Source: an uncultured Opitutaceae bacterium | Lineage (GTDB): Bacteria > Verrucomicrobiota > Verrucomicrobiia > Opitutales > Opitutaceae | Reading direction: 5' to 3' | DNA length: 33,176 bases | Assembly (NCBI GenBank): GCA_903929355.1 | Contig: CAIYUN010000056.1 | Location: 1 to 33,176, forward strand | Part shown: positions 5,575 to 26,886 of the stretch, piece by piece | How the letters are laid out: each line of letters starts with the position of its first letter | Position numbering within the stretch: the stretch's first letter is position 1 | Notes under the pieces: model-generated | Database searches by the model: none | The model's input: only the letters and a program-made list of their open reading frames with translations | What the model was told of the DNA's origin: nothing | Position numbers and translations under genes: made by a program

Positions 5575-5680
5575 CGCGGGGCGGCCAGCTCACGGACCGT
5601 AGGTGACGGTCCTGGCCCCGGCGACGCCGGCGGCGCTGACGCCCTGAGCTGAATTTGACCGACGCCGGTGGGAAGGGAAA

Positions 5681-5720
5681 GGCCCCATGGCCGCAGTTAT
5701 GGAAGAAGGCCATATTGGCC
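5681..5720 (+). promoter_or_regulatory. Conserved hairpin at the start codon of the repeat gene, copy A
   Basis: ATGGCC (5687-5692) pairs with GGCCAT (5708-5713), and outside it GGCC (5681-5684) pairs with GGCC (5717-5720) across a small internal loop. The structure ends one base before ATG 5722, and the loop side holds the only purine-rich ribosome-binding candidate (GGAAGAAGG, 5701-5709). The same stem is present in copy B. It could control translation, mark the element end or both. Confidence 0.5.
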
Positions 5721-5721
5721 C

Positions 5722-6093
5722 ATGAGTAGGTCGGATTTCACCGAGGTCTTCTGCGCACGTCACTCAGTACCGCGGGCGAATTTTGAGCGGTCGGTGCTGC
5801 GCCGGGCATTGTATCCGCATGCGCGGCTGCTCGCCCCCCTGTGCCATCTTTTCAAAAGGAATTATTTCGCGGCTGACCTCGACTTCATCCGTGCCGTTGT
5901 CGGCTATCACCCAGGGCACAACTTCTCGACCGACGCCATGGATTTCAGCGACCACCCGTCCAACCAGGGATTCTGGCGGCGGACGTTGCGCGTGCGGGTG
6001 TCCGCACGGCGATTGTTCAAGTTGGTCCGCAAGACCATGCCGTTGCCACTGGAGGCTCATCTCATTGCGCCGGAATCATACGGGGAAATTTGA
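5722..6093 (+). CDS. Duplicated 123-aa protein of unknown function, copy A
   Basis: The protein is basic and rich in Arg and His, with no signal peptide or membrane segment. Recognisable blocks are FCARHSVP, RALYPHARLLAPLCHLF, AADLDFIRAV, DFSDHPSNQGFWRR and a C-terminal RVSARRLFKLVRKTMPL. I know of no function. Copy B (13130-13501) differs at 12 nucleotides; 7 are silent and 5 change residues, which fits a translated gene. The frame extends upstream to GTG 5668 in both copies, so a longer start is possible, but ATG 5722 lies just after the conserved hairpin. From memory, related small proteins occur many times in Opitutaceae genomes. Confidence 0.65.
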   Translation: MSRSDFTEVFCARHSVPRANFERSVLRRALYPHARLLAPLCHLFKRNYFAADLDFIRAVVGYHPGHNFSTDAMDFSDHPSNQGFWRRTLRVRVSARRLFKLVRKTMPLPLEAHLIAPESYGEI

Positions 6094-6196
6094 GCGATGG
6101 CCGCCTGAGCCGATGACGCGGGGCGGGGCGAGCCTCCATGTGTTCCGGCAGAATTTTCAGGTGGCGGCGCTTCCGGTTGCCGCGTACATCCCTGCC

Positions 6197-7051
6197 ATGC
6201 CCGACGCGACCGCCCCCTCGCCAAGCGACGACATGCTGGCCGCCCTGCTCGCCGCGCCGGTCCCGCGCAAAGTGCCGGCTGAATTGCTACGTACAGCAAA
6301 CCGACAACCCTTGATGCTGATCCTGGTGATTCTCGGGCTCGGTCCCACCTTCCTGGGACTCCTGGCGGTCTGGCTGTTTTTCCCATGGGGCTATCAGCAC
6401 GACCAGCAATTGAACCTCGGACCCACCCAGCACGGATCCGGCCGCGTCACGGCCCAGACCCAAACCAATCTGTCCGAAGGCAGCTCCCGCAGCACCGAGG
6501 TCCCGGTTTACGCCTACGAGTTTGTCTTTTCCCCACGCGGAGGGGCCGAGAGCAAGGGCATTTGTTACACCACGGGTCAGAAATGGGCTTCGGGTTCGCC
6601 GGTGGACGTCGAGTATCTCGCCGCCGATCCCACGGTCGCCCGAATTACCGGGAGCCGCACCAGTGAGGTGAGCATGGACATACTTGTATTTCTCCCGCCG
6701 CTGTTCTTGGCGACAGGGCTGACGCTGGTCATTACTGGTCTGGGCCTGCGGAGGCGTAGGCGCTGGCTGCTCAAGAATGGCGTCGTTGGCGAGGGGCGAG
6801 TCCAGTCCGTCGGGCCATTGACCGGCCGCGTCAACCGCCAGCCGTCTCCCGTGCCGATTTTTCGGATCACGCTGCTGCAGACCAATCCCACGGTCGCCCA
6901 ACTTCATAAGGTGTGGGCGCTCCCTCTGATTCAACGCCAAGAGATTGAGTTCTTCCAGGCCCGGCTCGCCTCGCAGCAGCCGGTCTTCATGCTCTACGAT
7001 CCGGCCCGGCCGAAGCGCGTGATTTTCCCGGAAACCCTGCTGCTGAAGTGA
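6197..7051 (+). CDS. Membrane protein with two TM segments, DUF3592-like
   Basis: The 284-aa product has TM segments at about 39-63 and 161-184. An extracytoplasmic domain lies between them and a second soluble domain follows a basic stretch (RRRRRW, 185-190). The two soluble parts look alike in design: the first has the phrase VDVEYLAADPTVARI and the second VFMLYDPARPKRVIF. This matches the DUF3592 pattern, a membrane family of unknown function. The reading frame continues far upstream through the repeat element, but ATG 6197 gives a normal N-terminus. The gene directly follows copy A, and its start lies in the diverged edge of the repeat. Confidence 0.65.
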   Translation: MPDATAPSPSDDMLAALLAAPVPRKVPAELLRTANRQPLMLILVILGLGPTFLGLLAVWLFFPWGYQHDQQLNLGPTQHGSGRVTAQTQTNLSEGSSRSTEVPVYAYEFVFSPRGGAESKGICYTTGQKWASGSPVDVEYLAADPTVARITGSRTSEVSMDILVFLPPLFLATGLTLVITGLGLRRRRRWLLKNGVVGEGRVQSVGPLTGRVNRQPSPVPIFRITLLQTNPTVAQLHKVWALPLIQRQEIEFFQARLASQQPVFMLYDPARPKRVIFPETLLLK

Positions 7052-11572: not shown

Positions 11573-11791
11573 TTATTTTCCAACCACTGGAAAAGCTCTG
11601 CGCCCAATGACAATATTATCCGCCGTAAGGTCGTCCGGATTGATCTGTTCCACCAACCTCCGCAGCGCCGCCGCCTGGCGCGCCGGGATTGTCATCCACC
11701 GCATTTGCGCCATCAGGTTTGGCTCCCCCCACGTTTCCTTCCGCGTCGAGACCGCTATTGGGCCCGCATCTGACTTCACTTCCAATGGCAC
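11573..11791 (-). CDS. Possible small ORF or gene remnant, 72 aa
   Basis: The 446-bp gap between 11478 and 11925 holds no clear + strand gene. On the minus strand a GTG-started frame encodes protein-like sequence: KSDAGPIAVSTRKETWGEPN, MRWMTIPARQAAALRRLVEQ, INPDDLTADNIVIGRRAF. Most third codon positions are G or C, as expected for coding DNA here. No family is recognised and no membrane or signal segment is present. It may be a small gene on the opposite strand or the 3' part of a decayed gene. The rest of the gap shows nothing I can name. Confidence 0.35.
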   Translation of the reverse strand: MPLEVKSDAGPIAVSTRKETWGEPNLMAQMRWMTIPARQAAALRRLVEQINPDDLTADNIVIGRRAFPVVGK

Positions 11792-11924
11792 CCGTTTGGA
11801 TCTGGATCTTGCCGTGAAGGCTCGCGTCGCGCGGGGATTTCCTTTTCATCTCGCCAGGCCCGTCTTCGCCGGTGTTGCATTCGGAAAACAGTCACCCGTT
11901 GGTGGTCGCCAATCCCAAATCCCC

Positions 11925-13037
11925 ATGAAAACACAGTTCTACGTCTCCGCCGCGGTCCTCTCAATTGGTCTCAGCCTGGCCTCGGCCCAGACCGCCGTCG
12001 CTCCGCCCCCGGCGGCGGCTCCCGCTCCTGCCACGACGGCGACTCCGGCCCCGGCCCGCGCCGGGGGGGCGGCACGTCCGGCGATACCATTGCGCGACCC
12101 GCTCGCCGCCGGCTACGTCAAGGCCACCGAAATGCCCGACGGCCAGGTGCCACCGATGGAGGCCGATGGCAATTTCATCATCGGGCGGACCCACCCCCAG
12201 GCGCCGGAAATGAGCCCCGTCGCGGCCGGCCAGCCCAAGGGCAAAGTCCTCAAATTCACGCTCAATTCCACCGAGAGCAAATTTTACCCGGGCATCGCTC
12301 CGGGCGGACCCCAGCCTTACAAGCGCTCCGTTTCAGTTTATGTGCCAGCGCAATATGTGCCCGGCACCGTTGCGCCGGTCATGATCACCTCCGACGGCGA
12401 CGGCCGGGCCTTCAATGTGCTCGACCATCTGATCCCGTTGAAGCAGCTGCCGGTGATGATCGTGGTCGCCATTCCCCCCGGCGGCCCCGACGGGCGCGGC
12501 GGCGAGCGCAATCTGGAATACGACACCATGTCCGGCAAATACAGCGACTTCGTCGAGACCGAGGTCCTGCCGATGGCCGAGAAAGTTGCCAACGTGAAGC
12601 TGACGAAAGATCCGGACGGGCGCGCCGTGATGGGTACCAGTTCCGGCGCGGCGGCGGGCATGATCATGGCGTGGTTTCACCCGGAGCGCTACCATCGCGT
12701 GCTCACGTTCTCCGGCACGTTCACCAACAATCAATACCCGACCGATCCGGCCTACCCGCACGGCGCCTGGGGACTCCACGAAACGCTGATCCCGAACAGC
12801 CCCGTCCAACCGCTCCGCATCTACTTCGAGTGCGGCGACCACGACAACTTCGGCGGGGCAACGCGCGATTGGGTGGAGGCCAACGAAAACATGGCGAAGG
12901 TGCTGACCGCAAAAGGTTATCACTATAAATTCGTCTTCGCCCGCAACGCCGGCCACACCGACCGGCCGACGATCTCCGAGCTCTATCCCACCGCGCTGCA
13001 GTGGATCTGGCAGGGCTATCCGATCGAGGGAAAATAG
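11925..13037 (+). CDS. Secreted alpha/beta-hydrolase, esterase D-like
   Basis: The 370-aa product begins with a signal peptide (residues 1-22) and an Ala/Pro-rich linker to about 55. The body matches the Esterase D/enterochelin-esterase-like fold: strands around RSVSVYVPAQY (134-144) and VMITSDGDGRAF, the nucleophile elbow GTSSG with Ser239, an acidic candidate in FECGDHDNF, and a His candidate in NAGHTDRP near the C-terminus. Such enzymes hydrolyse carbohydrate or siderophore esters; the substrate here is unknown. The frame is open upstream to 11547, but ATG 11925 starts the signal peptide. Copy B of the 492-bp element begins 7 bp after its stop. Confidence 0.85.
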   Translation: MKTQFYVSAAVLSIGLSLASAQTAVAPPPAAAPAPATTATPAPARAGGAARPAIPLRDPLAAGYVKATEMPDGQVPPMEADGNFIIGRTHPQAPEMSPVAAGQPKGKVLKFTLNSTESKFYPGIAPGGPQPYKRSVSVYVPAQYVPGTVAPVMITSDGDGRAFNVLDHLIPLKQLPVMIVVAIPPGGPDGRGGERNLEYDTMSGKYSDFVETEVLPMAEKVANVKLTKDPDGRAVMGTSSGAAAGMIMAWFHPERYHRVLTFSGTFTNNQYPTDPAYPHGAWGLHETLIPNSPVQPLRIYFECGDHDNFGGATRDWVEANENMAKVLTAKGYHYKFVFARNAGHTDRPTISELYPTALQWIWQGYPIEGK

Positions 13038-13088
13038 CCGGGGCTGGCGCCCTGAGCTGAATTTGACCGGCGCCGGTGGGAAGGGAAA

Positions 13089-13128
13089 GGCCCCATGGCC
13101 GCTGTTATGGAAGAAGGCCATATTGGCC
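13089..13128 (+). promoter_or_regulatory. Conserved hairpin at the start codon of the repeat gene, copy B
   Basis: The two-part GGCC/ATGGCC stem seen in copy A is fully conserved here; the one nearby substitution falls in the loop (GCAG in copy A, GCTG here). The structure again ends one base before the ATG at 13130. Confidence 0.5.
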
Positions 13129-13129
13129 C

Positions 13130-13501
13130 ATGAGCAAGTCGGATTTCACCGAGGTCTTCTGCGCACGTCACTCAGTGCCGCGGGCGAATTTTGAGCGGTC
13201 GGTGCTGCGCCGGGCATTGTATCCGCATGCGCGGCTGCTCGCCCCCCTGTGCCATCTTTTCAAGAGCAATTATTTTGCGGCGGACCTCGACTTCATCCGT
13301 GCCGTTGCCGGCTTTCGCCCGGGGCACAACTTCTCGACCGACGCCATGGATTTCAGCGACCACCCGTCCAACCAGGGATTCTGGCGGCGGACGTTGCGCG
13401 TGCGGGTGTCCGCACGGCGGTTGTTCAAGTTGGTCCGCAAGACCATGCCGTTGCCACTGGAGGCTCATCTCATTGCGCCGGAATCATACGGGGAAATTTG
13501 A
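13130..13501 (+). CDS. Duplicated 123-aa protein of unknown function, copy B
   Basis: This paralogue of 5722-6093 differs at five residues: Arg3 to Lys, an Arg to Ser after CHLFK, Val to Ala in DFIRAV, and Tyr-His to Phe-Arg in the following turn. The C-terminal half, including DFSDHPSNQGFWRR and RVSARRLFKLVRKTM, is identical. The gene is intact. As in copy A, a GTG (13076) offers a longer in-frame start. Confidence 0.65.
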   Translation: MSKSDFTEVFCARHSVPRANFERSVLRRALYPHARLLAPLCHLFKSNYFAADLDFIRAVAGFRPGHNFSTDAMDFSDHPSNQGFWRRTLRVRVSARRLFKLVRKTMPLPLEAHLIAPESYGEI

Positions 13502-13645
13502 GCGATGGCCGCCTGAGCCGATGACGCGGGGCGGGTCTGGTTTCCGGTGCCCGGCGGAATTTTCAGGTGGTGGCGCATCCGTCGGCCCCCTCCATCCCTG
13601 CCCTGCCCGATGCGATTGCCCCGCCTCCGGACCCAAAGGGTTGAA

Positions 13646-13940: not shown

Positions 13941-14140
13941 AGAGACCAAATACCATTGGGAAACTCGGGGTGAAAACTTTCAGAACGATCGAGTTTGAAC
14001 CACTGATGAACACTGATTCTGAGGATCGGATAAGTGCTGATTAGTGTGCATAAGTGGTTGAAGGTTTTTGTTTGGCGAGGTCAAAGGCGAACACCAAGCC
14101 CTTGTGTCCTCTATCTTCTTCCCTTCGTGAATCAGCGGTG
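13941..14140 (+). repeat. Dispersed intergenic repeat, copy 2
   Basis: This matches 58-267 in the same orientation, lacking about 12 bp of the internal short repeat. It ends 55 bp before the chosen start of the binding-protein gene, so it probably supplies part of that operon's leader or promoter region. The 55-bp direct repeat found beside copy 1 is not present here. Confidence 0.85.
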
Positions 14141-14194: not shown

Positions 14195-15205
14195 ATGGCG
14201 CACGATCTCGGAATCAGGCGACGCATCCATGGACCTGGGTTCGGCAATGGTCGCGTCGTCGTGGCGGCAAATGCCGGCCGTTTGGTGGGCGGCGTGGCCG
14301 CGAGGCTTTCCCGGCTGGCGTGGCTGCTGACGGCAGGGCTGGGCCTGTTTGGCCCGGGGCGGGGGTGGGCCGTGGAGCCGATGCGGTACATTTACGACGC
14401 CCCTGAATCCGCCACGGACCAGCGCTACCTGTATCAATGGACCATCTTGAAAACCGCCTTGGACAAGACCGTCCCCCAGCACGGGCCTTTTGCACTGCAA
14501 CCGTCCGAGCCCATGACCGAGAAACGCCAGAAGTCCGAGCTCATGGATGCCACGGGGAAGCTCACCGTCATGTATCTGGGCACAACCCCCGATATGGAAA
14601 AGGGGCTGATCCCCATCCGGATTCCCGTGGACAAGAACCTGGGCGGCTACTGCGTCCTCCTGATCCGTCAGGAGAATCAAAAGCGGTTTGACGCCGTGAG
14701 CTCGCTGGAGGATCTGCGCCAGTTTAAATACGGGCTGGGGCAGGGGTGGATCGACGTGGACATCCTCCACGCCAACCAGTTTCAGGTCGTCACCGCCTCC
14801 TGCTACGACTGCCTGTTTGAGATGATGGAGAACCGGCGGTCCGACGCGGCCCTGCGCGCGGCGGTTGAAGTGATTGACGAATTCGAACTGCGCAAGGCGG
14901 CGATGCCCGACATCAGCATCGAGACCGGCCTCATCGTGTATTACCCCATGCCCATGTATTTCTGGTTTTCCAAAAGCGACGAGGGCCGGCGGCTGGCGGC
15001 GCGGGCGGAGGCGGGCATGCGGCTGATGATCGCCGACGGAACCTACGACAAGATCTTCACCCAGTTCCAGGACGCGAAAATTCAACGGCTCAGGCTGAAG
15101 GAAAGGAGGATCTTCCGCCTCAACAATCCGCTCCTGGGGCCCGAGACCCCGTTGGCGGACAAGCAACTCTGGTTTGACCCGGCCACTTACCGGGCGAGCC
15201 CATGA
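14195..15205 (+). CDS. Periplasmic solute-binding-like protein paired with a sensor kinase
   Basis: The 336-aa product resembles small-ligand periplasmic binding proteins (transporter substrate-binding fold). Its features include VDKNLGGYCVLLIRQENQKR, SSLEDLRQFKYGLGQGWIDV, a hinge-like return in PMPMYFWFSKSDEGRRLAAR and the terminal phrase DGTYDKIFTQFQD. Export is suggested by the hydrophobic LAWLLTAGLGLF segment (residues about 42-53), but it is preceded by an unusually long basic N-terminus, so a later start is possible. The gene overlaps the next (kinase) start by 4 bp, so the protein probably detects a ligand and signals to that kinase rather than serving a transporter; no permease gene is nearby. 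Confidence 0.75.
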   Translation: MAHDLGIRRRIHGPGFGNGRVVVAANAGRLVGGVAARLSRLAWLLTAGLGLFGPGRGWAVEPMRYIYDAPESATDQRYLYQWTILKTALDKTVPQHGPFALQPSEPMTEKRQKSELMDATGKLTVMYLGTTPDMEKGLIPIRIPVDKNLGGYCVLLIRQENQKRFDAVSSLEDLRQFKYGLGQGWIDVDILHANQFQVVTASCYDCLFEMMENRRSDAALRAAVEVIDEFELRKAAMPDISIETGLIVYYPMPMYFWFSKSDEGRRLAARAEAGMRLMIADGTYDKIFTQFQDAKIQRLRLKERRIFRLNNPLLGPETPLADKQLWFDPATYRASP

Positions 15206-17316
15206 ATGCGCTCCCCCGTAAAACCTCCATCGCGGTGACCGTGGGTCTCGCCTTGGTGACGGTTACGACCTTGGTGCTGGTCACCCTGGGCGTGGTCAGC
15301 TACCGTCACACCAGCGATCAGGAGTTGGAAAAACTGCGGGTGGCGCTGGCGCTCGACGCCGACCAGCTCGCCCCCAACCTGGACCTGCCGGTCTGGAATT
15401 TCGACCATCCTGAAATCGACAAGGTGGTCGAGAGCATGATGGTGGATCCCGTGCTGCAGAGCATCGTGGTCAGTGCGACGGACGGCCAGAAGGTGCTCTG
15501 CGCGCGTGAACGCGACGCGCAGGGCAACATCCGACCACTGCAGGCCGCCTCGCCCGCCAGCGGGTTCCTGGTGGAAAAGAGGTCGATCATCTTCGCCGGC
15601 GAAACCTTGGCGACGGTGACCCTGGTGGGCACAACCAAATCCATTGAGGGAAGGCAGAAAAACCTCCTTGCCTGGGTCTTCTACAACATCTTGTGGGTTG
15701 ATTCGGCCTTGTTCCTCGGCGTCTTTCTGCTGCTCCACCGCTGGGTGTTTAAACCGCTGCAGGAAATCGAGGCCTACGCCGCCGCTGTCAGTGTCGGCGG
15801 CAGCGCGCGGCTGGTGCGGACGTTCCAGGGGGAGTTGGAAGGCCTCCGCGCCTCCATTGAGAAGATGTTTCGCCTGCTGAGCGCCCGCTACCTGGAGCTG
15901 CAGGAAAGCGGCGAGAAATTCTCCAAGGCCTTCCAGGCCAATCCGAGCGGCTTGGCCATCACCGAGCTGGAAACCGGGTGCTATCTGGAGGTGAATGAGA
16001 GTTTTTACCGGATGTACGGCTATTCGCGCGAGGAAATGATCGGGCGTACCTCCATGGAATTGGGGGTGTGGAAAGACGCGGAACACCGCGACTGGTTCAT
16101 CCGGCAATTGCGCATCGTCGGCACGGTGCGCGATTATGAGATGGAATCCCGGACCCGTGGGGGTGATACAAAGACCCTGTTGGTCAACGCGGAACGGATC
16201 GAACTCCGTGGCCGCCTTTGCGTCGTGTCCCTGCTGCAGGACATCACCGAGCGCAAACGGGCGGTGGTGGCCCTCATCCAGTCGGAGGAGCGATTCTCCC
16301 GGATCTTCCGGAGCAACCCGATGCCGATCACCCTCACCCGGTTGGCCGACGGTTTGTTCCTCGATGTGAATGAAGGTTTTCTGCGCTTCTCGGGCTACAC
16401 CCGCGATGAGGTGGTCGGCCGGACGGTTCTGGAGCTGAAGCTTTACGAGCACGATACCCAGCGGGCGCTGGTCCTCGGGCAGCTGCAGCAGCACGGGCAT
16501 CTGCACGATCATGAACAGCTCTTCCGGACCAAGTCCGGGCAGTTTCGCAACCAACTGCTGTGGTTTGAGCTGCTCACATTCAGCGGCGAACAGTGCATCC
16601 TTACGATCACCTGGGACATCACCGAACGCAAGCAGGCGGCCGCCCGCGAGCGCCAGGCGAAGGATGCTTTCACCCAAAAACTGATCGCCTCACAGGAGGC
16701 GGAGCGCAGCCGGATCGCTAGCGAACTGCACGACAGTCTCGGGCAAAACCTGATCCTGATCAAACACCGGGCCCAGATCGGGCTCGATCTGGCCGAAGCG
16801 TCGCCGACGGTGCGCGACCAGTTTCAGGGCCTGCAGGACATGGCCGCCCGGGCGATCGCCGAGGTCCGGCACATTTCCCACGATCTGCGGCCCTACCAGC
16901 TGGACCGGCTGGGTCTCGTCCGGGCCCTGGCCACCATGATCGACGGGGCGGCGGAGAACAGCCGGCTCCCCATCGCCCACAAATTGGACCCGGTGGACGA
17001 TCTTTTTTCGGCCGAGGCCGCCACGCATTTGTATCGCATTGCGCAGGAAAGCATCAGCAACATCCTCAAGCATGCGCAGGCCCGGAGCGCCAAGGTCGGG
17101 CTGGAGCGGGACGTGCACGACGTACGGTTGTGGATCGAGGATGACGGCCGGGGTTTTCCCATGGCCACCGGCCAATCCGGATTGCCGGGCGGGGGCCTTG
17201 GCCTGAGCAGCATGGCCGAGCGCGTCCAGATGCTCGGCGGCACCCTGCGAATTGAGTCCCGGCCCGGGCAGGGCACCCGGATTGAGGTGACCATCCCGCA
17301 TGCGGGAGGAACCTGA
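15202..17316 (+). CDS. Membrane sensor histidine kinase, PAS-PAS-HisKA_3
   Basis: This 704-aa NarX/DegS-class kinase has TM1 at about 9-33 and TM2 at about 157-180, enclosing a periplasmic domain of about 120 residues with DLPVWNFDHPEIDKVVESMM (61-80). Two PAS domains follow (about 240-350 and 364-475), each ending in DITERK. The HisKA_3 dimerisation helix contains the phospho-accepting His510 in SELHDSLGQ. The ATPase domain shows YRIAQESISNILKHA (N box) and EDDGRGF (G1). It overlaps the binding-protein gene by 4 bp and is followed by its probable partner, the NarL-type regulator at 17416. Confidence 0.92.
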   Translation: MNALPRKTSIAVTVGLALVTVTTLVLVTLGVVSYRHTSDQELEKLRVALALDADQLAPNLDLPVWNFDHPEIDKVVESMMVDPVLQSIVVSATDGQKVLCARERDAQGNIRPLQAASPASGFLVEKRSIIFAGETLATVTLVGTTKSIEGRQKNLLAWVFYNILWVDSALFLGVFLLLHRWVFKPLQEIEAYAAAVSVGGSARLVRTFQGELEGLRASIEKMFRLLSARYLELQESGEKFSKAFQANPSGLAITELETGCYLEVNESFYRMYGYSREEMIGRTSMELGVWKDAEHRDWFIRQLRIVGTVRDYEMESRTRGGDTKTLLVNAERIELRGRLCVVSLLQDITERKRAVVALIQSEERFSRIFRSNPMPITLTRLADGLFLDVNEGFLRFSGYTRDEVVGRTVLELKLYEHDTQRALVLGQLQQHGHLHDHEQLFRTKSGQFRNQLLWFELLTFSGEQCILTITWDITERKQAAARERQAKDAFTQKLIASQEAERSRIASELHDSLGQNLILIKHRAQIGLDLAEASPTVRDQFQGLQDMAARAIAEVRHISHDLRPYQLDRLGLVRALATMIDGAAENSRLPIAHKLDPVDDLFSAEAATHLYRIAQESISNILKHAQARSAKVGLERDVHDVRLWIEDDGRGFPMATGQSGLPGGGLGLSSMAERVQMLGGTLRIESRPGQGTRIEVTIPHAGGT

Positions 17317-17415
17317 GGCCGGGTCGGCTGTGTCTGTCGGTCCGCGACCATGGGGGATTGGTTCGCGCTGGTTTTACCCTCGCCAATTTGGCGCCCCCGG
17401 TCTTCCTTGCCGGGC

Positions 17416-18060
17416 GTGATCAAGGTCCTGATCGTCGACGACCACCCCCTCTTCCGCCAGGGGTTGCGCCAGTTGGTGGAATCCGACTCCCGCTTCGAAC
17501 TGGTGGGGGAGGCCGGCGACGGTCCCGCGGGGATGGCGTTGATCGGTCAGATCAAGCCGGATGTCGCCGTCCTCGATGTCGATCTGCCGGGCCTGTCCGG
17601 CCTGGAGGTGGCGCGCAAATTGCAGAGCCGGCGACACTCCACCCGTATTGTCATCCTCACCATGCACAATGATGAGCAGACGTTCAACCGGGCCATGGAT
17701 TTCGGGGTGCGCGGCTTTGTGCTGAAGGACAACGCGGTGCAGGACATCACGGACTGCCTGGCCGCGGTCGCCCGGGGTGAACATTATCTGAGCCCGTCCA
17801 TTTCCAGCTTTCTGGTCCACCGCCGCAACCGGGCCGAGGCGCTCGCGGCCCGCCAGCCCGGGCTCGAGGACCTGACCAAGGCGGAACTGCGGGTGCTGAA
17901 GCTGATTGCGGAGAAAAAAACCAGCCGGGAGATCGCGGCCGAACTCTTCGTGAGCCCCCGCACCATTGAGGCGCATCGCGCCAACATCTCGGCGAAGCTG
18001 GGTTTGCACGGGAGTCACAGCCTCCTGCAGTTTGCCCTCGAGAACCGTTCCTCGATCTGA
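17416..18060 (+). CDS. NarL/FixJ-type response regulator
   Basis: The 214-aa product has an N-terminal receiver with Asp8/Asp9, phosphoacceptor Asp54, Thr82 and Lys104, and a C-terminal LuxR-type helix-turn-helix (about 150-205) with LTKAELRVLKLIAEKKTSRE and FVSPRTIEAHRANI. It should bind DNA as a phosphorylated dimer. GTG 17416 is chosen because it starts the first receiver strand directly (VIKVLIVDDH); an in-frame ATG at 17350 would add 22 residues unlike a receiver. Its cognate kinase is almost certainly the one ending at 17316. Confidence 0.9.
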   Translation: MIKVLIVDDHPLFRQGLRQLVESDSRFELVGEAGDGPAGMALIGQIKPDVAVLDVDLPGLSGLEVARKLQSRRHSTRIVILTMHNDEQTFNRAMDFGVRGFVLKDNAVQDITDCLAAVARGEHYLSPSISSFLVHRRNRAEALAARQPGLEDLTKAELRVLKLIAEKKTSREIAAELFVSPRTIEAHRANISAKLGLHGSHSLLQFALENRSSI

Positions 18061-18106
18061 CGGGGTGGCCGGGCCGCGCGGCTGGCGGCGGGATACTGAG
18101 AAAAAT

Positions 18107-18123
18107 AGCGGGAACTACCTAGG
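18107..18123. promoter_or_regulatory. Putative regulator site upstream of the PAS kinase
   Basis: The sequence GGAACTACCT (18111-18120) shares 9 of 10 bases with the centre of the perfect palindrome at 30537-30553. It lies 84 bp before the kinase start at 18195. The palindrome itself is degraded here. A role as operator is an inference. Confidence 0.25.
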
Positions 18124-18194
18124 CCATTCTACGCGGTCCTGCGAATGGACGGTCGTCCGGGCATTCGGTAAAGTCATGCCCTCACCACCGCGCC

Positions 18195-19454
18195 ATGATC
18201 AACACCCTGACCGCCCCCCTGTCCTCATTCACCGACCGTCGCACCAGCCCGCGTGCGACGTCCGACCTGCCGGCCCTGCGCCACACGTCCGAACGGTACC
18301 GGCTGCTGCTGGAGAATTCCGTGGACTTGATTGTCGAGACCACCCGCCAGGGGGAAATCCTCTATGTCAGCCCCAATGTCGCCAACGTCCTGGGCTACTC
18401 GGCCGGTGAACTGCTCCACCAAAATATCTTCGCCCAGGTTCATCCCGAGGATTTGGACCAGACCGCGGCGCTGTTTGCGCTGCCCGAAGGCCGCGGCACC
18501 TGCCGCTACCGCCACAAAAACGGCGGCTGGCGCTGGCTCGAGACCACCGGCCGCGAATTCCTGGCCGCGCCGGACCAGGTGCGGAGCGTGCTCGTGGTGC
18601 GCGACATCACCGAACGCAAGGAGGCCGAGGCGGCCCGGCGTCACCTGATGGAAGAGCTCGAGAAGAAGGCCAAGCTCAGCGCCCTGGGCATGCTGGCGGG
18701 CGGCATCGCCCATGACTTCAACAACATGCTCACCGTCATTGGTCTTTACCTCGGCATGGCCCGGGCGGACTGCCAGGATCCCGATGTTCAGCCGTCGCTC
18801 GTCCAAATCGCCGAGGCGGTCACCCGGGCTAAGGGCATGGCCCAACAGATCCTGACATTCAGCCGGCATCAGGACCACGCCCACCGGCTGGTCCGGTTGC
18901 CGGATGTCATTGAGGAGGTGCTGCAATTCCTGCGGCCGAGCTGGCCGGCCGGCGTGCATATCGTCACCGACCTGCCGGCGGACGCGGGTTGGATCATGGC
19001 GAACCCCGGCCAAATCCACCAGGTGTTGTCCAATCTTTTTCTCAACGCCACCCAGGCCATGGAACCGTCCCCGGGCCGGCTCGAAGTGCGCGTGCGCTCG
19101 TTCGAGACCGACCGGCCGTTCAGCGAACCTCATCCCCATTTGGGGGTTGGCCGCTATGTCTGGCTGACCGTCAGCGACACCGGTCACGGCATGGACGCCG
19201 CCACCCAGCGCCAGATCTTCGAGCCGTTTTTCACGACCAAGCGCACCGGCCAGGGAACCGGTCTCGGCCTGGCGATTGTGCACCGCATCATCAAGGACCA
19301 TGGGGCCTGCATCCGCGTCTCGAGTGAGCCCGGCCGGGGCACCACGTTTCAGCTCTTCTTTACCGCCCAGCCCGCTCCGGCCTTGGCGGAGAGGGAAGAC
19401 CCGGACCGCGACACTCCGGTGGTCACGCCGGAAGCTCAATTGGCCTGCCGGTGA
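18195..19454 (+). CDS. Soluble PAS histidine kinase, NtrB-like
   Basis: The 419-aa product has no membrane segment. A PAS domain (about 33-145) contains VDLIVETTRQGEILYVSPNV and ends in VVRDITERKEAE. The HisKA region carries AGGIAHDFNNML with phospho-accepting His173. The ATPase domain shows QVLSNLFLNATQAM (N box), VSDTGHGM (G1) and GTGLGLAIV (G2). The stop overlaps a possible GTG start of the following regulator, so the pair should be co-transcribed. Pairing an NtrB-like kinase with a NarL-type regulator is less usual than pairing with an NtrC-type one. Confidence 0.92.
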   Translation: MINTLTAPLSSFTDRRTSPRATSDLPALRHTSERYRLLLENSVDLIVETTRQGEILYVSPNVANVLGYSAGELLHQNIFAQVHPEDLDQTAALFALPEGRGTCRYRHKNGGWRWLETTGREFLAAPDQVRSVLVVRDITERKEAEAARRHLMEELEKKAKLSALGMLAGGIAHDFNNMLTVIGLYLGMARADCQDPDVQPSLVQIAEAVTRAKGMAQQILTFSRHQDHAHRLVRLPDVIEEVLQFLRPSWPAGVHIVTDLPADAGWIMANPGQIHQVLSNLFLNATQAMEPSPGRLEVRVRSFETDRPFSEPHPHLGVGRYVWLTVSDTGHGMDAATQRQIFEPFFTTKRTGQGTGLGLAIVHRIIKDHGACIRVSSEPGRGTTFQLFFTAQPAPALAEREDPDRDTPVVTPEAQLACR

Positions 19455-19474
19455 ACAATTTTCCGCCACCTCCC

Positions 19475-20179
19475 ATGTCCACTTTTCCTCCGGTTGAGGC
19501 CAGCCCGACGCCCGTCAAAACCCGGCCGGTTCGGATCGTGGTCGTCGATGACCATCAGATGCTGCGCGACGGCCTGCGGTCGCTTTTGGCTCGCGAGGCG
19601 CCCGGCCTCGAGCTCGTGGGCGAGGCTGGCAGCGCCTACGCCGGCCATGCTTTGGTCTCCCGCCTGCGACCGGACTTGGTGGTGCTTGATCTTAATTTGC
19701 CCGATCAAAACGGGGCCAATTTGGCCACGGCCATCAGCACGACCTGGCCGGAGACCAAGGTCCTCGTCCTGTCCGGGAGCTGCACTCCCCCCGAAATTCG
19801 GAATGTGATGCGGTCCGGCGCCCATGGCTTTGTCCACAAGGAGGACGCGGCATCCGAACTCCTGCGCGCGATCCCTCTCGTCATGGCCGGGCAGCCCTGT
19901 TTCTCGCCCGGGGCCGCCAGCGCCATCGCCCAGGCGCTGTGGCGGGAATCCGAGCCCAAGCCCAGGTCGGAGACTCCGCCGCTGTCTGGCCGCGAACGGG
20001 AGTTTCTGCGCAGTCTCGCGGGCGGTCTCGGTTACAAGGAAATTGCTGATCAGATGTCGGTCAGCGTGCGGACCGTGGAGACCTATCGGGCGCGCCTCGT
20101 GCGCAAGCTTGGCTGTGCCACCCGGGCCGGGCTGATCCGCTATGCCGTGCGCAATGGCATGGCTGACACCCAGATATAA
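19475..20179 (+). CDS. NarL/FixJ-type response regulator
   Basis: This 234-aa regulator has a receiver with Asp25/Asp26, phosphoacceptor Asp72, Ser100 and Lys122, and a LuxR-type helix-turn-helix near the C-terminus (LSGREREFLRSLAGGLGYKE, VSVRTVETYRARLV). The start may be GTG 19451, which would overlap the kinase stop by 4 bp, or ATG 19475; the Pro-rich lead-in does not decide between them. It is most likely the partner of the PAS kinase upstream. Confidence 0.9.
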   Translation: MSTFPPVEASPTPVKTRPVRIVVVDDHQMLRDGLRSLLAREAPGLELVGEAGSAYAGHALVSRLRPDLVVLDLNLPDQNGANLATAISTTWPETKVLVLSGSCTPPEIRNVMRSGAHGFVHKEDAASELLRAIPLVMAGQPCFSPGAASAIAQALWRESEPKPRSETPPLSGREREFLRSLAGGLGYKEIADQMSVSVRTVETYRARLVRKLGCATRAGLIRYAVRNGMADTQI

Positions 20180-20393: not shown

Positions 20394-22079
20394 ATGAAAA
20401 AGCATCCGACCACCCTCACCACCAAGCTGATCAGCGGCTTTCTCACCGTCTCCGTCCTCACCGCCCTGGTGGGTGCCGGCGGCTATTATGGCCTCAGCCA
20501 GGCCTTGACTGATGCCGGATCCATCATCCAGCAGACCCGGGATCGCGGCCAGTTTGTCACCAGCTCGGTGGACCTGGCTCGGTCGGCCCAGGTTAACTTC
20601 AAGAAGCAGGTTCAGGACTTCAAGGATGTCCTGTTGCGGGGCAAGAACGCGGATGACTACGCCAAATATTTCAAGGGTTTCGAGACGGACGAGGCGGCGA
20701 CCCGGCAGAACCTCACCACCCTCAAGGCTCAGCTGGAACAGGCGGGCATTGATTCAGCTCTCGTCGCCAAGACGTCCGCGGACCATGCCGACTTGAGTGG
20801 GAAATACCGGCAGGCGCTGAAGAGTTTCGATCCGACCCTGCCCAACCCTTCGGAGGTTGTGGACCGGCAGGTGCGCGGGATAGATCGCGCCACCACCGAC
20901 GAGATCGACGGCATCGTTGATCAAGTGGTGCATTTCGACCAGGCGACGACCAAGACCTTGGAGGCGGCCTTCGCGCTGCGCATCCAGCGGATCAAGCAGC
21001 TCACTCTGGCCGGCATGGTCTTCGGCATCGCCGCGGCCGCCGGGCTGGGCCTCTATCTCAGCTGGTCGCTTTCCCGGCAGCTTCGCCGCCTGGCGTCGGC
21101 GCTCGCCTTGAACAGCGACGAGGTGGCCTCGGCGTCCGAACAGATCGCCTCGACCAGCCAGCAGCTGGCCGAGGGCGCCAGTGAACAGGCCGCGGCCCTC
21201 GAGGAAACGGGTGCCTCCCTGGAGGAGATGTCGGCCATGACCCGGGCCAATGCCGAGCATGCCCAGACCGCCAAGGATCTCGCCACCCAGACCCGGGCCG
21301 CCGCAGAGGCGGGCGCGGCCGACATGGGGGCCATGTCCGAGGCCATGGACGCCATCAAGGCCTCCGGCGACAACATCGCGAAGATCATCAAGACGATCGA
21401 CGAGATCGCCTTTCAAACCAACATTCTCGCGCTCAACGCCGCCGTCGAGGCCGCCCGGGCCGGTGAGGCCGGGGCCGGCTTTGCGGTCGTCGCCGACGAG
21501 GTCCGGAACCTGGCCCAACGCAGCGCCCAGGCCGCCCACGAAACGGCCGAAAAGATCGAGGACTCCATTCACAAGAGCCAGCGGGGGGTGACCCTCAGCG
21601 GCCAGGTGGCGGTCCGGCTGCAGGAGATGGTGGAGAAGGTCCGCCAGATGGACCAACTGGTGGTGAACATCGCCAACGCCTCGAACGAGCAGAGCACCGG
21701 CATCGGCCAGATCACGACTGCGGTCAGCCAGATGGACAAGGTGACGCAGCAGAATGCCGCTGGGGCCGAGGAAAGCGCCAGCGCCTCCCAGGAACTCAAC
21801 GGCCAGACCATCATTCTGCGGAACTCGGTGCAGGAGCTGATGGCGCTGGCTGGCGGCAAAAGCGCCTCCTCCGTGCAGGTGGGGACCCGGCCGCAGCCGA
21901 CGGCCCCGGTCACGGCCGGACCGAAATCCTCCTTCAAACCATCCTCCTCCGCCCCGATCACCCCGAAGCTGCCCGGCCGGAAGTCTGCCTTCACCGCCCC
22001 TTCCCGCAGCCATGGTGAAATCGCATCCGTGAACGGCAATGGCCACGGCCCCGACGCCGCCGACGAATTCTTCAACTAA
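20394..22079 (+). CDS. Methyl-accepting chemotaxis protein (MCP 1)
   Basis: The 561-aa receptor has TM1 at about 11-33 and TM2 at about 203-224, with a helical periplasmic ligand-binding region between them. The cytoplasmic signalling domain includes the conserved tip [20 protein letters not shown] (337-356) and the following [18 protein letters not shown]. Only a few residues after TM2 resemble HAMP (SRQLRRLASAL); a full HAMP domain is missing. A Pro/Ser/Lys-rich linker leads to the C-terminal tail PDAADEFFN, closely similar to that of MCP 2. The gene is first in the chemosensory cluster, 9 bp before cheW. Confidence 0.93.
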   Translation: MKKHPTTLTTKLISGFLTVSVLTALVGAGGYYGLSQALTDAGSIIQQTRDRGQFVTSSVDLARSAQVNFKKQVQDFKDVLLRGKNADDYAKYFKGFETDEAATRQNLTTLKAQLEQAGIDSALVAKTSADHADLSGKYRQALKSFDPTLPNPSEVVDRQVRGIDRATTDEIDGIVDQVVHFDQATTKTLEAAFALRIQRIKQLTLAGMVFGIAAAAGLGLYLSWSLSRQLRRLASALALNSDEVASASEQIASTSQQLAEGASEQAAALEETGASLEEMSAMTRANAEHAQTAKDLATQTRAAAEAGAADMGAMSEAMDAIKASGDNIAKIIKTIDEIAFQTNILALNAAVEAARAGEAGAGFAVVADEVRNLAQRSAQAAHETAEKIEDSIHKSQRGVTLSGQVAVRLQEMVEKVRQMDQLVVNIANASNEQSTGIGQITTAVSQMDKVTQQNAAGAEESASASQELNGQTIILRNSVQELMALAGGKSASSVQVGTRPQPTAPVTAGPKSSFKPSSSAPITPKLPGRKSAFTAPSRSHGEIASVNGNGHGPDAADEFFN

Positions 22080-22088
22080 GGCCACTTC

Positions 22089-22589
22089 ATGAGCACCGCC
22101 ACACCCATTCCATCCAGTCACCCCGGCAAATACCTGACCGTGGTCGTCGGACACGAGGCCTTCGGCATCGGGGTCCTCCAGGTCCGGGAGATCATCCGCC
22201 TGCAGAATATCACCCCCGTCCCGCAGACGCCTGAATTCGTCAAGGGCGTGATCAACCTGCGCGGCCGCGTGATCCCCATCATCGACCTGCGGGTGAAATT
22301 CGGCCTCCCGGCCGAACTGGCCAGCCGAACCTGCATCGTGGTCGTCCAGGTTGGCCAGGCGGGGGAGCCGCCCATCCCCATGGGCCTGATCGTGGACAGC
22401 GTCGAGGAGGTGGTGAACCTGGGTCCGGACCAGATCGAGCCCGCGCCCGACTTCGGGGCGCGCATCGACACCGCCTATATTCTGGGCATGGCCAAGGTCG
22501 ACGGCAAGGTGAAGACTTTGCTGGACATCGACCGCGTGGTGGCGTCCGGAGTCGTGCAGGCCATCGCGGAACAGCACGCCTCACCATGA
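22089..22589 (+). CDS. cheW: Chemotaxis adaptor CheW
   Basis: The 166-aa single-domain CheW protein links receptors to CheA. Visible family features are YLTVVVGHEAFGIGVLQVRE (20-39), FVKGVINLRGRVIPIIDLRV (55-74) with the conserved NLRG, MGLIVDSVEEV and the terminal GMAKVDGKVKTLLDID. Its stop overlaps the cheR start by 4 bp, which suggests translational coupling. A purine-rich AAGG lies about 9 bp before its ATG. Confidence 0.94.
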   Translation: MSTATPIPSSHPGKYLTVVVGHEAFGIGVLQVREIIRLQNITPVPQTPEFVKGVINLRGRVIPIIDLRVKFGLPAELASRTCIVVVQVGQAGEPPIPMGLIVDSVEEVVNLGPDQIEPAPDFGARIDTAYILGMAKVDGKVKTLLDIDRVVASGVVQAIAEQHASP

Positions 22590-23413
22590 AAGACAGCGAA
22601 TTTGAGTTCATTCGCACACTGGTCTATGAGCGCAGCCGGATCCTGCTCGACGACCGGAAGCGGGAGTTGGTGACCGCGCGGCTCGGCAAACGCATGCGCG
22701 TGAACCAGGTGGACTCCATGGGTGACTACTGCCACCTGCTCCGCTCCCCGGAGCAGGAGGAGGAGCGGGTCCAGTTGATCGACGCCATCTCCACCAACCA
22801 CACGTTCTTCTTCCGCGAACTCGCCCATTTCGACCTGGTGCGCGACCACATCATCCCCGAGATGGCGGCGCGGGCGTCAGCCGAGGGCTGGACCCGCTTT
22901 GACGCCTGGAGCGCCGCCTGTTCGTCCGGCGAGGAGGCCTATTCGCTCGCGATGACCCTGGCCAGCCGGCTGGACGGCGGAGGTTGGCCCTGGCAGGTTG
23001 AGGCGACCGACATCTCGCACCGCGTGCTGGCGGCGGCCCAACGGGCGATCTACAAAGAGGGGGCCGTCACCCCGCACACGCCGGAATGGGCCATGACCGG
23101 CTTCCAGCGTGGTTTTGGACCGCAGCTGGGCCACTACCGGGTGAAGACCGCCATGCGCGACCGGGTGAATTTCCGCCAGTTGAACCTGCTCGAGGCCTCG
23201 CCGCCTTTTTCCTCCCCGTTGCAGCTCATTTTCTGCCGCAATGTCATGATCTACTTTGACCGGCAGACCCAGGAGGAACTCATTGCCAGACTCACCAGCC
23301 ACCTCGTCCCGGGAGGGTACCTGATTGTGGGGCATTCCGAAGGGCTCAGTGGCGTGCGCCATCAACTGCAGCTGGTCCAGCCATCCGTCTACCGGCTGCC
23401 CCCCGCCCGATGA
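22586..23413 (+). CDS. cheR: Chemoreceptor methyltransferase CheR
   Basis: This 275-aa enzyme methylates receptor glutamates using S-adenosylmethionine. Motifs in order are ISTNHTFFFRE near residue 70, the SAM-binding WSAACSSGEEAYSLAM, EATDIS, then IFCRNVMIYFD and PGGYLIVGHSEGL near the end. The length is typical and no TPR extension is present. It is overlapped by 4 bp at both ends, by cheW and cheB. Confidence 0.95.
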   Translation: MKDSEFEFIRTLVYERSRILLDDRKRELVTARLGKRMRVNQVDSMGDYCHLLRSPEQEEERVQLIDAISTNHTFFFRELAHFDLVRDHIIPEMAARASAEGWTRFDAWSAACSSGEEAYSLAMTLASRLDGGGWPWQVEATDISHRVLAAAQRAIYKEGAVTPHTPEWAMTGFQRGFGPQLGHYRVKTAMRDRVNFRQLNLLEASPPFSSPLQLIFCRNVMIYFDRQTQEELIARLTSHLVPGGYLIVGHSEGLSGVRHQLQLVQPSVYRLPPAR

Positions 23414-24498
23414 GCCTGTCCCCCAAAATCCGGGTCCTCGTGGTGGACGACTCCGCTGTGGTCCGCCGGCTGGCCTGCGAACTGCTGGGCGCCGACCGGG
23501 AGATCGAGGTCGTCGGCACCGCCGCCGATCCGTACGAAGCCCGCGACCAGATCGCGCGGCTGGCCCCCGACGTGCTGACTCTGGACCTGGAGATGCCGCG
23601 GATGGATGGTCTCACGTTTCTGAGTCTGCTCATGGAGCGCCGGCCCCTCCCGGTGGTCATCATGAGCACGCTCACCGCGCGCGGATCGGAGTTTGCCCTG
23701 GAAGCGCTGCGCTTGGGCGCCGTTGACGTCATCGGCAAACCGGTCGGCGGCCGGCGGCTGGACGACATCGGCGCGCAGCTGGTGGCCAAGGTCAAGGCCG
23801 CGGCCGGCGCACGCGTCCGGTCGGTGCCGCGCACGGCGGCGACGGCGGCGGTTGGCCCGACCGCCAGCGGCGGAGCCCCCCGGCGGCCGGATCCCCGGGC
23901 GACGATCCTGCTCGGTGCATCCACCGGGGGGGTCGAGGCCTTGCGCGAGGTGCTCACGGCGCTGCCGGCGGATCTTCCTGGCATCGCGATCGTGCAGCAT
24001 ATCCCGGCGCTGTTCTCGAAAACCTTTGCCGCCCGCCTCGACTCGCTCAGCGCGCTGGAGGTGCGCGAGGCGGCCGATGGTGACCACCTGCTTCCCGGCA
24101 CGGCGCTGGTGGCACCCGGCAATTTCCATCTGCTGCTGCACTGGACCGGGCGGCACCATCAGGTGCGCCTGGCCGGCGGCCCGGCCGTCTGGCACCAGCG
24201 GCCGGCCGTGGACCTGCTGTTCAAATCCGCCTCCGACGCGGGTCACGCCCGCCACTGCGTCGCCGGCGTGCTCACCGGCATGGGGCGGGATGGGGCGGAG
24301 GGGCTGCTGCGCCTGCGCGAACTCGGAGCGGCGACGTTCGCCCAGGACGAGGCGTCCAGCGTCGTTTACGGCATGCCCCGGGCCGCCCAGGAAATCGGTG
24401 CGGCCCAGACGGTGCTGCCGCTGACCGGCGTCTCCGCCTGGCTCAACCACCACCCGGTCTGCAATCCGCCGCCGGCCACGCCGGCCCTCCACCCATGA
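23410..24498 (+). CDS. cheB: Receptor methylesterase/deamidase CheB
   Basis: This 362-aa protein has an N-terminal receiver (Asp13/Asp14, phosphoacceptor Asp59, Lys110), an Ala/Arg-rich linker to about 163, and the C-terminal esterase. The catalytic triad is visible as Ser171 in GASTGG, His197 in VQHIP and Asp294 in GMGRDGA. Phosphorylation by CheA should activate removal of receptor methyl groups. The gene overlaps both cheR and cheD by 4 bp. Confidence 0.95.
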   Translation: MSLSPKIRVLVVDDSAVVRRLACELLGADREIEVVGTAADPYEARDQIARLAPDVLTLDLEMPRMDGLTFLSLLMERRPLPVVIMSTLTARGSEFALEALRLGAVDVIGKPVGGRRLDDIGAQLVAKVKAAAGARVRSVPRTAATAAVGPTASGGAPRRPDPRATILLGASTGGVEALREVLTALPADLPGIAIVQHIPALFSKTFAARLDSLSALEVREAADGDHLLPGTALVAPGNFHLLLHWTGRHHQVRLAGGPAVWHQRPAVDLLFKSASDAGHARHCVAGVLTGMGRDGAEGLLRLRELGAATFAQDEASSVVYGMPRAAQEIGAAQTVLPLTGVSAWLNHHPVCNPPPATPALHP

Positions 24499-25061
24499 AC
24501 GGCACCTGGTTTACCCAACGCGTCGTCGTCGGGGTCGGCGAGTTGGCCGTTTCCAACACGGCGCAGGCCATTCTGAGCACCTATGCGCTGGGCTCCTGCG
24601 TCGGCGTCGCCGCCTATGATGCGGCCCTGAAGGTTGGCGGCATCCTGCACTTCATGCTGCCGGACTCGCGGCTCTCCCCGGCCAAGGCGTCGGTCCAGCC
24701 GGCCATGTTTGCCGACACCGGCCTGCGGGAGTTCTTCGCCCAGCTCCGTGGCTTCGGGGCCCGGCCGGCCGGCCTGCAGCTGTTTGTGGCGGGCGGCGCC
24801 CGCGTGATCAGCGGGGAGGATCCATTTCGCATCGGGGCCCGCAATGCGGACGCCACGCTCGAGCTGCTCGTCGGCCACGGCTACACCGTCGATCCCGGTG
24901 AGCTCGGGGGCAATTTCAACCGCACCCTCCACCTCGCGCTCGACAGCGGCCAACTGACCCTGAAGACGCCGCACGCCGAGCACCAGGTTGATCTTTCTCC
25001 CCGGTCCCACCCGGGCTTGTCCGCCCTCTTCCGCCCGGCGCCCCCCCTCGCCGTCGGGTAG
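24495..25061 (+). CDS. cheD: Receptor glutamine deamidase CheD
   Basis: The 188-aa product has the CheD active site: Cys35 in ALGSCVGV, His52 in GGILHFMLPDSR and Thr29 six residues before the Cys, matching the known Cys-His-Thr spacing of Thermotoga CheD. It deamidates receptor glutamines and in several bacteria binds CheC or CheX-type phosphatases. A CheX-like gene follows 38 bp downstream, which fits such a partnership, though CheD normally pairs with CheC. Confidence 0.94.
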   Translation: MNGTWFTQRVVVGVGELAVSNTAQAILSTYALGSCVGVAAYDAALKVGGILHFMLPDSRLSPAKASVQPAMFADTGLREFFAQLRGFGARPAGLQLFVAGGARVISGEDPFRIGARNADATLELLVGHGYTVDPGELGGNFNRTLHLALDSGQLTLKTPHAEHQVDLSPRSHPGLSALFRPAPPLAVG

Positions 25062-25099
25062 CCACCCCATCGCCATCCCCTGACCGAACTCATTCTCCC

Positions 25100-25648
25100 A
25101 TGCCCACCACCACCGCTCCCACCGCCGCTCCCATTGCGGAAACCTTCGTCCGCGAGAACATCATCCGCGCCATCGGCGACGTCTTCCAGACCATGCTGGG
25201 CTATGGCGTGCAGCCGGCCGCCGCCGCCCCCCCGGACAGCGCCGTCGGCAGTTCGAGCCGTCCGTCCGTGCCCGCCATCCCGGCGCCATTGGTTGTCGGC
25301 ACCGTTGGTTTCATCGGGAAGCTAAATGGCCTGATCTACCTGTACTTTGATGAATCCTTGGCGCTCCGCTGCACCGGCGACATGCTCTGCATGGGCGAAC
25401 TGGAGCTGGCCGAGACCGGAGCCGAATCGGTCAATGATGCCATCGGGGAGCTCACCAACATGGTCGTGGGCAGCTTCAAGAACTGCCTCTGCGATGCCGG
25501 CTATCCGTGCAAATTGACCATCCCGTCGATTCTCCGGGGGAGCAATTTCTGCGTGGAACCCATCAGCCACGCCCAGCGCCACGTCTATTATTTTCAATGC
25601 CACGGCCACCAGATGGTCGCGGACATCCACCTGAAATCCGGGGAATGA
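25100..25648 (+). CDS. CheX-like phosphatase
   Basis: The 182-aa product carries one D-x3-E-x2-N phosphatase motif with Asp113, Glu117 and Asn120 (DAIGELTN). It aligns by eye with the protein at 4641: both share GxxNGxI-type strands, ELTNM, SFKN or VFKN, and a later P(C)(K/R)LT(I/L)P block. A short Ala/Pro/Ser insert lies at about 38-62. It probably dephosphorylates the receiver encoded just downstream. A single motif favours CheX over CheC, which usually has two. Confidence 0.85.
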   Translation: MPTTTAPTAAPIAETFVRENIIRAIGDVFQTMLGYGVQPAAAAPPDSAVGSSSRPSVPAIPAPLVVGTVGFIGKLNGLIYLYFDESLALRCTGDMLCMGELELAETGAESVNDAIGELTNMVVGSFKNCLCDAGYPCKLTIPSILRGSNFCVEPISHAQRHVYYFQCHGHQMVADIHLKSGE

Positions 25649-25669
25649 AACCAGCCCACCGACCTGACC

Positions 25670-26836: not shown

Positions 26837-26886
26837 ATCCCTGCTCCCCCCGCACCTCGGCCACCCTCACCCCACCCGCCCTTCCC

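Follow-up and report, generated by a model that had tools for sequence, protein, structure and literature searches.

An apparent local duplication of a small, selected gene from an orphan protein family seen so far in a single bacterial order

Two kinds of described system come closest to the repeated small gene considered here. Non-autonomous elements of the MITE type are short and repeated, and the pair of repeats in our window (the whole stretch of 33,176 nucleotides analysed, from contig CAIYUN010000056.1 of an uncultured Opitutaceae bacterium) resembles them in both respects and in the conservation of its ends. The pair differs from them in that it codes for a conserved protein, is present in two copies, and shows neither inverted repeats nor target duplications on inspection. 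Lineage-specific families of paralogous orphan genes offer the second comparison. The family to which the repeated gene belongs shares with them its occurrence, so far, in one order, its patchy and multi-copy distribution, some closely spaced pairs, and purifying selection; a short C-terminal motif in 23 of 65 members sets it apart. The repeat in the window looks like an ordinary local duplication of a real, selected gene, in a family new to the libraries we searched.

A reading made from the sequence alone had described two gap-free copies of 492 bp, each with an intact gene for a 123-residue protein, and this description proved correct: positions 5636-6127 and 13044-13535 align without gaps and differ at 15 of 492 positions. 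As a core that length stands, but it is not the full size of what was duplicated. By blastn of the window on itself, 5631-6216 matches 13039-13622 over 586 alignment columns at 93.5% identity. Past the 3' 34 bp of the core comes a short, poorly similar stretch and then a 72-nt tail that is 82% alike (13 of 72 positions differ). The features of the two copies and of the unit adjoining the second are these:

5631..6216, forward strand: whole duplicated segment, copy 1, probably the source (blastn of the window on itself)
13039..13622, forward strand: whole duplicated segment, copy 2, probably derived (same blastn alignment)
5722..6093, forward strand: family gene, copy 1, 123 aa
13130..13501, forward strand: family gene, copy 2, 123 aa
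6145..6216, forward strand: diverged tail, copy 1, 82% identical to 13551-13622, overlapping the likely start of the next gene
13551..13622, forward strand: diverged tail, copy 2, 82% identical to 6145-6216
5687..5725, forward strand: possible 12-codon leader ORF, MAAVMEEGHIGP, whose TGA overlaps the ATG of the family gene, with a purine-rich stretch just upstream
13095..13133, forward strand: the same possible leader ORF, copy 2
11771..13046, forward strand: putative esterase unit adjoining copy 2 (Pfam PF00756)

Both genes are intact (372 bp, encoding 123 residues plus a stop), and their proteins are 96% identical, with five residues different. The 15 differences of the core split into three upstream of the ATG (86 bp), 12 inside the gene (372 bp), and none downstream of it (34 bp). 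Seven of the 12 within the gene are silent, as had been counted before, and the NG86 method gives a dN of 0.018 and a dS of 0.081, for a dN/dS of 0.22. The core differences are clustered, with eight of the 15 inside a 58-bp patch at 5856-5913 (p 0.0036, 20,000 permutations); the longest identical run between the copies, 115 bp, is ordinary by permutation (p 0.27). The leader and the 3' part together carry 3 differences in 120 positions against 13 in 72 for the tail (p 0.0003), and comparison of the tail with silent sites (7 in about 88, an estimated denominator) gives a p of 0.09 only. Such uneven divergence would fit partial gene conversion or uneven constraint, two readings that a single genome does not tell apart.

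The peptide of the possible leader ORF is identical in both window copies, its one nucleotide difference being silent. We considered the leader as a trait of the whole family and dropped the claim, since overlaps at other members were scattered and the survey had no control. A C-rich run ([AT]CCCC or CCCCT) occurs within 25 nt before the ATG in 19 of 56 ATG-start members (L061-L118) versus 26 of 248 controls; the starts of the controls were guessed, and we offer this as a lead only.

The surroundings of the two copies suggest a direction for the event. At copy 1, the tail extends into the probable beginning (a predicted ATG at 6197) of the next gene, which matches DUF3592 below that model's cut-off. 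In copy 2 the piece of this next gene is truncated and its candidate ATG reads CTG; by comparison of the two, the copy 2 tail resembles a degraded fragment from the beginning of that gene. Because the tail runs into a gene start in the one place and is truncated, with CTG, in the other, copy 1 is probably the source. Next to copy 2, the esterase stretch 11771-13046 is 95.9% identical to contig C114 of G028, a genome of another genus. The match ends where the repeat begins, and the flanks of the unit differ on both sides in G028. A GCTG occurs at the esterase unit's end as well as at the start of copy 1, and may represent microhomology at the junction, being also short enough to be shared by chance. 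In the course of events that we propose, a 586-bp piece holding one small gene and the DNA next to it would have been duplicated once, from 5631-6216 to 13039-13622, just downstream of the esterase gene, in an illegitimate and perhaps microhomology-mediated event. Both copies would have been retained under purifying selection, and may have been partly evened out by gene conversion.

The esterase unit in its own right suggests the recent horizontal transfer of a single gene, and its family has 12 matches in the same genome. We also asked whether window copy 1 is orthologous to the L063/L066 locus, which has the same upstream peptidase family, and rejected this: the tree separates them, and the gap in the window is 3.8 kb.

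Other features of the window include positions 58-267 and 13941-14140, which are 91% alike and belong to an intergenic repeat of about 200 bp with at least 48 matches in the same genome (40 of 94 candidates scored); a brief literature search on this repeat returned nothing relevant. Positions 1-55 recur exactly at 258-312, a 55-nt repeat at the contig start that probably reflects a k-mer loop made by the assembler within a tandem copy of the 200-bp repeat. Several short inverted repeats (31-34 nt) lie at 2364-2622, and resemble stretches found in further genomes of the genus. Downstream of the duplicated genes, 15202-20179 and 20394-28944 hold two sensor kinase/response regulator pairs and chemotaxis genes (an MCP and a CheA-like protein with a CheW domain).

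The sequence-only reading had also supposed several copies with conserved flanks, and had named a non-autonomous mobile unit as one explanation. A DNA search of the organism's own genome (a 3.80-Mb draft in 91 contigs, in which copies may have been collapsed) finds two copies only. A protein search adds one paralogue, C85:81671-82003, at 52% protein identity. The flanks conserved between the members of the window pair were not found on this third gene. The 72-nt tail, searched for in the same genome, gave weak matches only (E 0.008 and above) beyond its two known places.

A mobile unit here would be an element of 492-586 bp, mobilised in trans by a transposase and carrying the gene as a passenger or accessory. 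The near-identity of the flanks along with the gene would suit it, as would the varied contexts in multi-copy genomes and the position of copy 2 at the very point where similarity to another genome stops. Two of 26 family members even match DDE_Tnp_IS66_C in Pfam, at a best E of 0.091 that is near chance, yet leans toward a transposase. However, examination by eye found no terminal inverted repeats (30 nt per end, four boundary choices) and no target-site duplication (15 nt per side, boundaries tried), the true ends being uncertain in both cases, and two DNA copies in a 91-contig draft are few for such an element. Where other multi-copy genomes were compared, similarity of the DNA at the gene does not reach beyond the coding part, save for a repeat-rich duplicated segment in G138, and other DNA matches lay away from the gene. 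With copy 1 as query, neither the 50,697 phage records nor the 72,556 plasmids searched gave a match, and a pattern search of viral contigs gave none either; all these searches perform best for close relatives. Loci shared between genera, and the presence in G001 of a decayed remnant instead of a clean empty site, also speak against mobility. Integrase neighbours of three members were not counted as a sign of mobility, since all three come from a single group of shared loci (L067, L072, L078); that integrase is presumably a chromosomal Xer gene. We regard the mobile unit as very improbable.

The family was defined by an alignment of 26 rows (A1), and these rows were used in the profile searches. 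Copy 1 alone as query finds relatives at E 1.8e-43 and weaker. Against the profile, window copies 1 and 2 score E 8.5e-44 and 2.8e-44 over positions 1-103 of 103, partly by construction, both being rows of the profile. With up to 19 candidates scored per genome, at least 92 genomes out of the 252 in the taxonomic family have matches (68 of 165 high-quality genomes; 26 of 49 genera), at 1-8 copies each, as expected from the earlier suggestion of a lineage-specific multicopy family; many of the 160 genomes that gave no match are incomplete. In a sample of the phylum, scoring up to 12 candidates in each genome gave matches in 20 of 387 genomes, of which 17 belong to the same family and three to family f21 of the same order, which we take, from the labels of the named loci, to be the Opitutales. 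These 18 loci come from MAGs whose labels are Opitutaceae, Opitutae, Verrucomicrobia or related genera, and from the complete genome of the cultured strain IMCC26134, whose member (L066) carries the C-terminal motif. Removing one duplicate of L070 from 66 profile hits leaves 65 rows; alignment A3 contains 63 of these, two L094 rows having been omitted as near copies of L093. Some of the loci L061-L078 and some of the G-numbered entries share a genome of origin, and the rows are not independent. A literature search found nothing on the family or the repeat, which does not prove their absence from print.

In a FastTree tree of the 63 rows, many of whose nodes are weak, the window pair groups (support 0.98) with the gene on contig C92 of G028, its closest relative at 58-61% identity. 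That gene lacks synteny with either window copy over the 10.3 kb compared, and shared loci are therefore not shown for the subclade of the window. Across the family, neighbours are common to groups of loci from different genomes and genera, several of these links being one-sided and possibly reflecting common gene families. The family gene lies directly downstream of a phosphoesterase, which we take from its motifs to be LpxH-like, in G002, G003, G004 and G005 (same genus as the window) and in G009 (another genus). The phosphoesterase is present in 41 of 57 genomes searched (E 1e-40 or better) and absent from the window's own genome. Among the phosphoesterase loci read, the family gene directly adjoins in five genomes and is 3.6 kb away in G027, and most others have none. 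G001 has the phosphoesterase together with a remnant of the family gene, 25 residues and then a stop, apparently the one case of loss by decay. The second phosphoesterase of G004 (C224) has neither family gene nor visible remnant alongside.

Close pairs of family genes, which suggest local duplication, occur in at least five genomes, with spacings of 7.4 kb in G000, 3.7 and 4.4 kb in G138 (on two contigs), 0.45 kb in G197, 0.53 kb in G059, and 0.78 kb in G057. The G138 segment (L093, L094) is rich in repeats and has two family genes on each of two contigs, either strain variants or a real duplication. NG86 comparison of 11 pairs gives dN/dS values of 0.14-0.28 in ten (the window pair and nine others), ratios that are rough because dS is near or above 1 in eight of the 11. 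The second copies of L093/L094 are the one outlier, at 0.80. These values support the earlier proposal of a translated and constrained protein. The family appears to have been inherited at some shared loci, duplicated nearby now and then, and, in the one case seen, lost by decay.

The encoded proteins are small (a core of about 105 residues) and basic and, judging from predicted structures, probably all-helical. Nine short helical elements and a poorly ordered tail appear in both structure models, built from 26 and from 63 sequences with mean pLDDT of 80.9 and 77.7 respectively, so that the deeper alignment brought no gain. The full-length pI is 7.9-11.4 in all 65 rows (5.8-11.4 for the first 108 residues alone), in agreement with the earlier description of a basic protein. 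Across the 63 aligned rows, L30 and S94 are invariant, C11, D52 and R92 are found in 61, R86 in 60, and R97 in 56, and all seven residues are present in both window copies. A C-terminal [ST]x{1,2}PF motif occurs in 23 of 65 tails, against a mean of 1.5 (maximum 6) in 500 shuffles, a count inflated by related rows. The window copies do not have it; the motif is common in the family and not required.

That the protein has no recognised domain was likewise upheld, with no convincing match in Pfam-A, NCBIfam 20.0, PHROGs 4 or PADLOC 2.0. The best weak matches of the 26 members were Pfam Lin-8 (E 0.044), an NCBIfam cysteine--tRNA ligase model (0.022) and PADLOC SduA (0.014), and PHROGs gave none to E 0.1. 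Each of these weak matches concerns no more than two members, and the family matched is unrelated. Against PDB sequences the best profile match has an E of 1.9. Foldseek searches of PDB (two runs) and BFVD (one) gave nothing usable, with no PDB match below E 4.6, and a VIA fold search (two runs) reached a best Z of 3.8, also not usable; a fold missing from any of these results is not thereby excluded. For a helix-turn-helix there was neither a Pfam match nor a usable match in the fold searches. An internal repeat was suspected from the similar layout of helices 6-44 and 68-105, and rejected when profile-profile comparison of the halves gave no alignment.

Our favoured reading of function, held tentatively, is a small regulatory protein that probably binds nucleic acid. 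The conserved arginine-rich C-terminal helix region (R86, R92, S94, R97) would contact the nucleic acid in a presumably cytoplasmic protein, and the disordered tail that carries [ST]xxPF in roughly one member in three may recruit a partner protein. The compact basic core, the arginine-rich last long helix, the lack of a fixed partner gene and the patchy presence all fit a dispensable regulator of this sort. Against it, no fold match lends support, basic charge alone is weak evidence, and the tail motif is missing from the window copies. Nearly as likely, though still on the unlikely side, is a protein-protein adaptor or anti-factor that makes no contact with nucleic acid, its core binding a cytoplasmic enzyme or sigma factor while the PF tail docks a second partner. 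The tail motif in 23 of 65 members favours an adaptor, and so do some signalling neighbours, though kinase and receiver domains, the commonest found, appear in four each of 75 neighbours and sigma-70 regions in two. These 75 were chosen by hand among 125 gene models, longer models being favoured and some near-duplicates omitted, and neither their Pfam tally nor neighbour clustering revealed a recurrent partner gene. That absence, and the strong basic charge, weigh against an adaptor.

An accessory conflict gene, whether defence, toxin or antitoxin, would account for patchy presence and rapid divergence: 160 of the 252 family genomes, many incomplete, have no match, and copies are diverged. It is nonetheless improbable, since only one of 26 members has a PADLOC match, a weak one (SduA, E 0.014), and the window copy none, and since recurrent partners are missing and loci are shared. 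The more specific picture of a new fold confined to one order, in which paralogous DNA- or RNA-binding regulators dock a common cellular partner through the tail and the window pair is a recent duplicate that has lost it, we consider doubtful. The explanation as a whole, which joins local duplication, an order-restricted family of helical basic proteins and a nucleic-acid-binding regulator, we hold to be moderately probable.

In place of a possible mobile element, the analysis puts a case of local duplication within an orphan gene family. The family defined here lies outside the four profile libraries searched, and its conserved residues and tail motif are directly testable. Its one to eight paralogues per genome, under selection and with a motif in common, make it a tractable start among the unannotated small genes of the phylum.
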